Below are positions 45,426 to 47,272 of a stretch of 64,000 nucleotides of DNA, in pieces. This DNA is from an uncultured Metabacillus sp. (GTDB taxonomy: Bacteria > Bacillota > Bacilli > Bacillales > Bacillaceae). Location: contig NZ_CANNCR010000005.1 of the NCBI RefSeq assembly GCF_947503125.1, positions 1 through 64,000 of the forward strand, given 5' to 3'. The notes under the pieces were generated by a model. It was not told the DNA's origin and did not search any database. It worked only from the letters and a program-made list of their open reading frames with translations. Position numbers and translations under genes: made by a program. The stretch's first letter is position 1, and each line of letters starts with the position of its first letter.

Positions 45426-46220
45426 ATGCAGCAGGAAAAAATTCACAGCTATTTGGAAAGTTTTTTCACAGCCAATTCTTGTGAAATTATCGAAAACGAG
45501 CCAGGTCATTTAACCGTCCAATTAACAATCGAGATGGACAAGGAATTAATGAATCGGCCCTTCTATTGGCATTACCTCGAAAAAACAAATGGAGTTCCAA
45601 ACCCAATGAAGCTAACATTGATCACAGACCAACAAAAAGCACCGGCAGATTTAAAGGGCGAGGTCATGCATTTTGGTGCACCTCGCCTTCATCAAATTTT
45701 TCAAACCACCACAAAATTGGGAAGCTATATCCGCTTATTTGAAAAAGTCAATGCGTCTTATGGAAACACCCCTTTACACCCATGGCTTGGGATGAATATC
45801 ATGGTTTCCTACCAATGCGACATGAAAAAGGACAAACTTTATTCCATTGGTTTACATCTCATAAGCGGTACATTAATAGAAAACTTTCAAGATAAACTAG
45901 AAACTCTTGAGCTAACACCAAAAATTCCGGACCTCTGCTTTAATTTAACACCATTAATAAGACCACAGAGCGGAATAAGAAGAATCAGGCAATTTATTGA
46001 ACAAAGCATTAGCGAACAAGACCACACATGGGCAGATTCTGCTAGAAAGAGATGGAACGAGGATCTCAAACTATTAGACCACTTTTACGAAGAGTTAGAC
46101 GAAAAACCGGAAAGTTATCATTTAGAAAAGGATGCTTTACGTGAACTTTATGAACCGAGAATCAATATCTCTATTCAGAATGGCGGGATTTTTTATTTAA
46201 CCCAACAAGCTATTTTTTAG
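45426..46220 (+). CDS. yqhG: YqhG family protein
   Basis: 264 aa soluble protein. No membrane segment or known catalytic motif is seen; stretches such as NGVPNPMKLTLITD and FGAPRLHQIFQ are typical of the YqhG family. The ATG lies behind GGTGG, 28 nt after yqhH, so the two are probably co-transcribed. The function is unknown. Confidence 0.9.
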   Translation: MQQEKIHSYLESFFTANSCEIIENEPGHLTVQLTIEMDKELMNRPFYWHYLEKTNGVPNPMKLTLITDQQKAPADLKGEVMHFGAPRLHQIFQTTTKLGSYIRLFEKVNASYGNTPLHPWLGMNIMVSYQCDMKKDKLYSIGLHLISGTLIENFQDKLETLELTPKIPDLCFNLTPLIRPQSGIRRIRQFIEQSISEQDHTWADSARKRWNEDLKLLDHFYEELDEKPESYHLEKDALRELYEPRINISIQNGGIFYLTQQAIF

Positions 46221-46288: not shown

Positions 46289-46466
46289 ATTAGCAGCTCT
46301 TTTCGACAAATTTCCCATCGGTCATTTAATAATAAATTTAAGATTCCTTAAAATTAACTTAAAGAAAAGTTTAAATAATTTACAAAAAACTATTCAAAAT
46401 AGGTATTTTCACCCTTCTCATGTTACAAACATATTAAATTCACCCCAATCAAAATAATTTTTTCCA

Positions 46467-46510
46467 ATCGACACCGTTCTGCACACTTCCTTAAAATACC
46501 TTTTTATAAT
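46467..46510 (+). promoter_or_regulatory. Candidate sinI promoter with 0A-box-like site
   Basis: TATAAT (46505-46510) is a good SigA -10, but the -35 region is poor. ATCGACA (46467-46473), a 6-of-7 match to the inverted 0A box, lies just upstream of it. That arrangement is common in Spo0A-activated promoters, and B. subtilis sinI is activated by Spo0A-P. A transcript from here would start about 50 nt before the riboswitch. Confidence 0.45.
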
Positions 46511-46567
46511 AAGAATAGTTAGAAAGTCAGATATAGAAAAAGGACTTTTGAATGAATAAATATACAA

Positions 46568-46660
46568 TATCAGTAAAAGGGCAAACCTGTTGAAAAATAG
46601 GGACGCAAAGTCACAGATCTAACGTTCTACTATGATGGCTGGGCTGCCTGAAATACAGGC
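46568..46660 (+). promoter_or_regulatory. c-di-GMP-I (GEMM-I) riboswitch before sinI
   Basis: The sequence fits the class I c-di-GMP aptamer. GGGCAAACC (46579-46587) opens P2; its stem CCTGTT/AATAGG (46586-46591, 46596-46601) closes a GAAA tetraloop. Next is the invariant GGGACGCAAAG core, then P3 (AGTCA 46609-46613 with TGGCT 46636-46640) and the closing GGCTGGGCTGCC. P1 can form between TATCAG (46568-46573) and CTGAAATA (46648-46655). A short hairpin GCCTG/CAGGC (46646-46660) shares the P1 3' strand, so the two exclude each other. The sinI ribosome site follows at 46671-46676. No U-tract terminator is visible. Confidence 0.88.
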
Positions 46661-46683
46661 TAGTATTTTAGGAGGGTAAAAAG

Positions 46684-46842
46684 TTGAATATTGAAATTAT
46701 TGATCAAATAACTAAGGATGGCCATCTTGACCGGGAATGGGTGGAGCTCATTTTAGAAGCACTTGAAGTCGGCATTAGCGTAGAAGAAATTAAAGCGTTT
46801 TTAGCAAAGAAAGGAAATCCTGCCCTAAGTCAAGTTAGGTAA
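46684..46842 (+). CDS. sinI: SinI-type anti-repressor
   Basis: 52 aa from TTG 46684, 7 nt after GGAGGG; too short to be listed among long frames. It contains the SinI helix signature LDREWVELILEALEVGIS followed by VEEIKAFL. In B. subtilis SinI binds SinR as a heterodimer and frees biofilm matrix promoters. The gene lies directly before sinR, as expected. Its leader carries a c-di-GMP aptamer-like element. Confidence 0.92.
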   Translation: MNIEIIDQITKDGHLDREWVELILEALEVGISVEEIKAFLAKKGNPALSQVR

Positions 46843-46936: not shown

Positions 46937-47272
46937 GTGATTGGTCCACGAATTAAAAAATACCGAACTCAAAAAAATTTATCTTTATCTGAGCTAGCTG
47001 AAAGAGCAGGAGTTGCAAAATCCTATTTAAGTTCGATCGAACGCAATCTCCAGTCAAATCCTTCAGTTCAGTTTTTAGAAAAAGTTTCATCCGTATTAGG
47101 CGTGTCCGTTAACACCCTCCTCGATGAACAAAGTGAAACAGACCCAAAGGAACTTGACTACGAATGGAAAAAGCTCGTCCAAGACGCCATGCAGTCTGGT
47201 GTCTCCAAGGAACAATTTCGCGAGTTTTTGGAATTTACCAAATGGAAGCTACAGAATGATAATGATAAATAA
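46937..47272 (+). CDS. sinR: Biofilm master repressor SinR
   Basis: 111 aa from GTG 46937 behind AAGGTGA; a longer frame from 46886 lacks a ribosome site. The N-terminal Xre-type HTH (about 1-64: IGPRIKKYRTQKNLSLSELAERAGVAKSYLSSIER in pieces) is very close to B. subtilis SinR. The C-terminal SinI-binding helical hook (about 75-111) has VSKEQFREFLEF. A TATACT (46903-46908) between sinI and sinR could be a separate sinR promoter. It represses matrix genes and is antagonised by SinI. Confidence 0.96.
   Translation: MIGPRIKKYRTQKNLSLSELAERAGVAKSYLSSIERNLQSNPSVQFLEKVSSVLGVSVNTLLDEQSETDPKELDYEWKKLVQDAMQSGVSKEQFREFLEFTKWKLQNDNDK

Follow-up and report, generated by a model that had tools for sequence, protein, structure and literature searches.

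A c-di-GMP class I aptamer before sinI in Metabacillus and many related genera, with a predicted translational ON switch

The stretch of DNA that we analyzed (64,000 nucleotides, referred to here as the window) appears to come from the genus Metabacillus, judging by its genus-mates (among them Bacillus sp. SA1-12, M. bambusae, M. litoralis and M. niabensis). It contains yqhG (45426-46220) followed by sinI and sinR, and the intergenic region between yqhG and sinI-sinR holds an aptamer. sinI (46684-46842, + strand) has a TTG start and encodes an anti-repressor of 52 amino acids, identified both by its Pfam SinI domain (PF08671, 46.2 bits against a cut-off of 31.4) and by the adjoining sinR at 46937. 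sinR (46937-47272, + strand) has a GTG start and encodes 111 amino acids with an HTH_3 domain and a SinI-type domain. The Shine-Dalgarno (SD) sequence of sinI, recognized by sequence and folding, is AGGAGG at 46670-46675 (+), and its first half lies within a hairpin. An earlier note on this DNA, made from the letters alone, had placed a ribosome site and TTG for sinI shortly after the aptamer, and this is where we find them. A YxzE-like putative bacteriocin gene (PF25184; 47388-47627, - strand) lies directly after sinR, and an ordinary glycine riboswitch (RF00504; 43329-43421, - strand) is located on the same strand as, and upstream of, a gcvT-like open reading frame.

The region from 46570 to 46652 (+) is a c-di-GMP class I aptamer, as judged by Rfam matches and covariation. 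A search of the genome with the c-di-GMP-I family (RF01051) matched 46570-46651 with 72.2 bits against a cut-off of 35 (E = 6.7e-14), and cmscan of the entire window gave a match to c-di-GMP-I-GGC (RF03167) at 46571-46652 (+) with 62.7 bits against a cut-off of 59 (E = 2e-12). The earlier note had proposed a scan with the RF01051 covariance model as a check of its own reading, that a GEMM-I (c-di-GMP-I) aptamer in the sinI leader would allow c-di-GMP to set SinI levels. Its reading, the effect on SinI being a prediction, is upheld by the Rfam matches, by covariation and by conservation in many genera, and GGGCAAACC, the GAAA-capped P2, GGGACGCAAAG and the strands of P3 were all found at the positions that it gave. 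The window shares with RF01051 and its sub-family RF03167 the sequence core, the three-helix fold, the GAAA loop and the contact bases, and it scores above both cut-offs. It differs from these families in general by its position before sinI and by a 10-bp anti-SD hairpin that reuses the 3' strand of P1. The same genome has a second c-di-GMP-I match, of 57 bases and 39.2 bits (G000, contig C25:35121-35177; L004).

We assessed the helices of the aptamer on an alignment (A2) of 31 of the 33 aptamer-bearing sinI leaders of the family, comprising 30 distinct rows; L044 and L058, which are near or full duplicates, were omitted. Over the three-helix structure, 98.6% of 660 cells paired and 9 of the 22 pairs had changed on both sides. 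The pairing and the double-change value were each equalled by 0 of 500 shuffles. The covariation of the P1-P2-P3 junction comes from P2 and P3. In P2 (46581-46606, +), which carries the GAAA loop, five of the six loop-proximal pairs had changed on both sides in some row, and the two basal pairs were invariant. In P3 (46609-46645, +), both-sided change was found at 4 of 10 pairs, and 99.7% of cells paired. P1, in which the 5' strand UCAG (46570-46573, +) pairs with CUGA at 46648-46651, was paired in 97.5% of cells, with two of its four pairs invariant and none changed on both sides.

G20 and A47 are ligand-contact positions (PMC4744006, PMC11218506). The equivalent positions in the window are 46580 and 46607. 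Reading the sequences by eye, we found G at the former in 75 of 76 leaders, and the A at the latter was kept in all 76. C 46647 was invariant in the 31 rows of A2, and in the register that we used it is probably the equivalent of C92. In addition to the GAAA loop on P2, the sequences UCUAA and UAUGA are present in P3 and presumably resemble a receptor for the GNRA loop of P2. The family and the contact bases together point to c-di-GMP as the ligand of the predicted aptamer.

The sinI transcript is predicted to start near 46517, and with such a start the entire aptamer would be inside the sinI leader. The earlier note had regarded a start downstream of 46660 as counting against its reading; the predicted one is upstream of the aptamer. 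We aligned eight upstream regions, from 8 of the genus's 18 aptamer-bearing leaders (the window's included), together with the B. spizizenii leader L082. A putative -10 box, TATAAT (46505-46510, +), was aligned in all eight regions and in L082, and in the same nine sequences the core TCGACA was aligned 5' of the -10 box, in the window as the proximal Spo0A-box-like ATCGACA (46467-46473). A distal Spo0A-box-like motif, TTCGACA (46302-46308 in the window), was found 258-289 bases 5' of the P1 5' strand end in all eight regions, the window's own among them. We read TCGACA as a putative Spo0A box. A mechanical -35/-10 scan did not pick up the promoter with TATAAT at 46505-46510. The putative 0A-like boxes and the -10 box, which have the same layout as in the B. 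subtilis-group leader, suggest that Spo0A input to sinI is probably kept. Drive by Spo0A-P, which the earlier note had cited for B. subtilis as a contrast, would then be common to both.

The 3' strand of P1 has a conserved alternative partner. An anti-SD arm, CCUGAAAUAC (46647-46656, +), overlaps this strand (46648-46651) and pairs with an SD arm, GUAUUUUAGG (46663-46672, +), in a 10-bp helix that takes in the AGG of the sinI SD AGGAGG. Because P1 and the anti-SD helix both use 46648-46651, the two computed structures are mutually exclusive, and such sharing of a strand is a feature expected of a translational ON riboswitch. The earlier note had considered the mode of the switch not evident and had named a competing hairpin, GCCUG/CAGGC (46646-46660, +). 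That hairpin does exist in the window, with a predicted energy of -6.3 kcal/mol. We rejected it as the switching partner, since its pattern occurs in only 8 of 33 leaders. With 46663-46672, which includes the first half of the SD, as the conserved partner, the mode can be inferred, and it points to translational ON.

Pairing of the anti-SD helix was consistent across leaders. On A2, all 300 cells (30 distinct rows) were paired, with one-sided changes at three pairs and no double changes. In a wider alignment, whose 30 leaders included four from Bacillus, 96.0% of 298 anti-SD cells paired (with the misaligned rows L148 and L154 scored as mismatches), compared with 31-51% when the helix was slid by 1-3 columns. 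Two anti-SD pairs were doubly changed in the wider alignment, a value equalled by 3 of 500 shuffles, and both changes (UA to AU and AU to UA) occur in Fredinandcohnia quinoae (L142) alone. We also searched 93 distinct leaders for the best 10-bp helix ending at GG; L237 was omitted, as were one of the two matches in L156 (the second) and one in L263 (the 5' match). Ten of ten pairs were found in 68 leaders and nine in 7 (75 of 93 in total), whereas the same search of mononucleotide shuffles gave 0.13% at ten pairs and 4.0% at nine or more. The 18 leaders that were without a nine-of-ten helix include those of Oceanobacillus. Three of these 18 (L154, L235 and L236) have a shortened helix, and the platform is shorter in Oceanobacillus-like leaders.

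Folding predictions describe the two states. The isolated anti-SD hairpin was predicted at -10.2 kcal/mol, and in an unconstrained fold its pair probability was 0.97-0.98 and that of P1 was 0. When P1, P2 and P3 were imposed, the probability that SD base 46672 is unpaired rose from 0.02 to 0.97, with 46670 going to 0.26 and 46671 to 0.43; 46672-46675 were opened, and 46670-46671 were partly paired elsewhere. The only bases of AGGAGG that are firmly masked are 46670-46672, and two more pairs require an opened P3 foot. With P1 imposed the start codon also paired elsewhere: its probability of being unpaired was 0.15-0.19, lower than the 0.28-0.51 with the hairpin. The hairpin state was favored over the P1 state by approximately 10 kcal/mol (nearest-neighbor ensembles of -38.5 versus -28.6), which is more than a micromolar ligand could pay at equilibrium. 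The ON model therefore needs co-transcriptional control and tertiary contacts that were not counted in the energies.

We determined how widely the arrangement occurs by scanning one SinR locus per genome in a sample of the family. SinR was present in 79 of 80 family genomes, and a search for SinR in viral contigs found none. At the Rfam cut-offs, the aptamer was directly before sinI in 33 of the 35 SinR loci outside the genus Bacillus (18 of 20 in the window's genus, and 7 of 7, 6 of 6, 1 of 1 and 1 of 1 in four others), a result in line with the earlier note, which had suggested a survey of related sinI leaders. One of the two exceptions is L051, in which sinI was not recognized upstream of sinR, and the other is M. 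fastidiosus (L054/L126), which has sinI with neither aptamer nor hairpin pattern. A SinI open reading frame lies behind all 33 aptamers, and its start is 28-33 nt after the aptamer in 31 of them; in the other two, the script chose an upstream in-frame TTG as the SinI start. L114 (G061) has an aptamer, with no SinR match and no SinI found behind it, and was excluded from the sinI-leader counts. A strict regular expression for the aptamer was dropped after it caught only 9 of the 33 leaders with an Rfam match. There was no match to RF01051 or RF03167 in 14 well-known control genomes, Bacillus subtilis included.

Searches across the order used two models: R1, which was built from the sinI leaders of the family and includes the platform, and R2, which covers the aptamer only. 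Among the 80 named SinR loci from the best 80 of 413 relatives, R1 scored above 50 bits in 59, from Metabacillus, Sutcliffiella, Fredinandcohnia, Litchfieldia, Salirhabdus, Salinibacillus, Oceanobacillus, Thalassobacillus, Salibacterium and others. It scored 26-36 bits in 11, all labeled Bacillus and some of them subtilis-group species, and found nothing at E 0.01 in the remaining 10. A second set took one locus from each of 49 further genera in the order sample, and at least 11 of its loci are the same records as in the set of 80. In these 49 loci, R1 gave at least 44 bits in 23, 18 bits in one and nothing in 25. R2 found the same 23 loci with at least 49 bits, and Rfam agreed with R1 in all 20 of the 49 loci for which they were compared (10 matches and 10 without). 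When R1 was run over 299 genomes from the order, it matched at E 1e-12 or better in 176, representing 74 of 117 genera, and these matches may include c-di-GMP-I aptamers of other genes. Twenty further top matches (104.8-124.2 bits) all precede a SinI-like open reading frame. The Pfam cut-off of 31.4 bits is exceeded by 19 of these frames, and the remaining one scores 27.2. The 20 matches were hand-picked from the top of the list, four for nearness to a SinR match, and the presence of the platform in R1 skews this choice towards sinI-type leaders. sinI and its riboswitch are convergent with sinR, just downstream of it on the other strand, in four genomes (G234, G218, G335 and G292; L276, L277, L278 and L279), and in three others a distance of 44-51 kb separates them from the best SinR match (G245, G270 and G221; L280, L281 and L282). 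Two loci had unusual matches. In L263 (545-843, - strand) a long insertion in P3 seems to divide the sinI-leader aptamer, which gives two model matches, and in an Alkalihalobacillus MAG (L156, 438-573) a second c-di-GMP-I-like match lies approximately 600 bases 5' of that in the sinI leader.

The sinI leaders of Bacillus proper are like that of the window in their SD hairpin arms and, in L082, in promoter layout, as seen in the B. subtilis group (B. spizizenii L188/L082 and others). In contrast, the aptamer before sinI was detected in 0 of 44 SinR loci of Bacillus at the Rfam cut-offs, and R2 with its filters off found nothing convincing in these 44 loci (best 12.6 bits, E 0.6). The pattern CTGAAATA...TATTTT(A/G)GG is kept, with variable loops, in 42 of the 44 leaders. 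The isolated hairpin had a predicted energy of -5.9 to -8.1 kcal/mol. When the longer leader was folded, eight of the hairpin's pairs had a mean probability of 0.79 to 1.0 in 42 of 42. The first two bases of the SD part were paired at 0.83 or above in 40 and 41 of the 42, respectively, and its last G was open (0.12 or less) in 17. The SD is thus not mostly open in these 17 leaders, the opening being limited to the final G of the arm. R1 gave weak matches (18.7-44.3 bits) in 43 of the 44 leaders, all 43 containing the SD arm, and none in L096. Local alignment of the region upstream of the hairpin with aptamers, in 16 Bacillus leaders, gave shuffle p values from 0.003 to 1.0. Based on the R2 search and these alignments, we rejected a relic aptamer in the Bacillus leaders; what can be regarded as retained is limited to the hairpin and, for the subtilis group, a P3-3'-like GGCCGGACTG. 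This GGCCGGACTG, located before GCTGAAATAC, resembles the 3' strand of P3, with the C92-equivalent changed to G. In three Bacillus leaders that are pumilus-like by sequence (L097, L098 and L109), two motifs 5' of the sinI hairpin, AUCAGUCAAAAGCAAA and GACGCAA, resemble remains of the 5' half of an aptamer, as single matches that are not significant.

We consider it likely that the aptamer and the anti-SD hairpin in the sinI leader form a translational ON switch in which c-di-GMP frees the SD, in addition to the Spo0A input. The sinI mRNA, starting near 46517 at a Spo0A-type promoter, would contain the aptamer and, directly after it, the anti-SD hairpin. With no ligand, 46647-46656 would pair with 46663-46672 and mask the start of the SD; little SinI would be made, SinR would be free, and matrix genes would be repressed. 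Control is expected to be co-transcriptional (kinetic): c-di-GMP bound during transcription of the leader would cause P1 to sequester the shared strand before the SD arm exists. With P1 locked, the SD would be open and SinI translated. Since P1 excludes the anti-SD hairpin, c-di-GMP should turn sinI translation ON, and a second messenger of the sessile state would join the Spo0A input at the SinI/SinR switch.

Other explanations for the leader are less likely. If the hairpin at 46646-46660, followed by UAGUAUUUUA, ended transcription in one ligand state, the leader would be an OFF switch, and a consensus scan did score this hairpin as terminator-like (one found, compared with a shuffle mean of 0.2). 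However, the hairpin pattern is confined to the 8 of 33 leaders mentioned above, the U run is short and falls within the SD arm, which does not vary, and of the two hairpins the larger, anti-SD one is predicted to be the more stable (-10.2 versus -6.3 kcal/mol). We regard termination as very unlikely. It is also unlikely, if somewhat less so, that the SD hairpin acts alone, for example as a thermosensor or as the target of a protein or small RNA, with the aptamer affecting it little. This would account for the 42 of 44 Bacillus leaders that keep the hairpin pattern without an aptamer by the Rfam cut-offs or the aptamer-only model, but selection acts on the aptamer helices in the leaders that carry an aptamer, and an arm of the hairpin is the P1 strand itself.

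The ligand could also be a different cyclic dinucleotide. The c-di-GMP-I class has members that prefer another one, such as 3',3'-cGAMP, and an A at the G20 position is linked with cGAMP preference. There is one relative with this substitution (L241 in G361, aptamer near 556-635, - strand), the sole case among the 76 sinI-leader aptamers. The G in the window and in 75 of the 76 leaders, and the fact that both matched families are c-di-GMP families, argue against a different ligand, which we consider highly improbable.

In addition to the translational ON switch itself, we lean towards a history in which c-di-GMP control of SinI translation is ancestral in the order and was kept even where sinI left sinR. 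In the B. subtilis lineage the aptamer would have disappeared, leaving the SD-masking hairpin as a relic that may still throttle translation of sinI by another cue. Given how many families outside Bacillus have the aptamer, its loss in Bacillus would be the simpler history.

The element at sinI is, by sequence and covariation, a c-di-GMP-I riboswitch, of a known class, at a site that has been tabulated once before. Table 4 of a 2015 RNA-seq paper has an entry, (c-di-GMP)-sinI, for Bacillus methanolicus MGA3 at locus BMMGA3_08510, which came from the inspection of mapped 5'-UTRs longer than 100 nt (PMC4342826). As in the window, it is an Rfam-called c-di-GMP riboswitch before sinI, there in a mapped 5'-UTR; in the excerpts of that paper it consists of a table row and one sentence, with no mechanism, structure or species comparison (PMC4342826). 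The earlier note did not know the arrangement from B. subtilis; it was already in print for B. methanolicus (PMC4342826). The Bc1 riboswitch of Bacillus thuringiensis is of the same aptamer class and from a related genus; unlike the window, it has a long platform and two terminators, and sinI and SinR do not occur in the main text (PMC11218506). In the open-licence literature, we found no title or abstract opening that deals with how the ON switch works, with how widely it occurs or with the hairpin in Bacillus. Three points appear to be new relative to that literature: the ON platform, the occurrence of the arrangement across the order (before sinI genes remote from sinR as well), and the SD hairpin kept in Bacillus leaders with no detectable aptamer.

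SinI/SinR is a textbook bistable biofilm switch, and its SinI arm is described as being set by Spo0A~P. For matrix control in B. subtilis, c-di-GMP is regarded as of little importance. With a conserved riboswitch at sinI, c-di-GMP would enter the core of the SinI/SinR switch across much of the order, and the difference seen in the B. subtilis lineage would be explained by its loss of the aptamer. The sinI leader would be directly testable, with a predicted direction, and its value would lie in a readable ON platform, its breadth and a relic in the group of the model organism. The TasA family (PF12389) was matched twice in the genome of the window, in one case with a stop inside the matched stretch, and by analogy both TasA-family genes are likely to be SinR targets. 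The same genome contains only 4 GGDEF matches, a point against the ON model; the range is 6-27 elsewhere in the genus and 1-5 in Bacillus.
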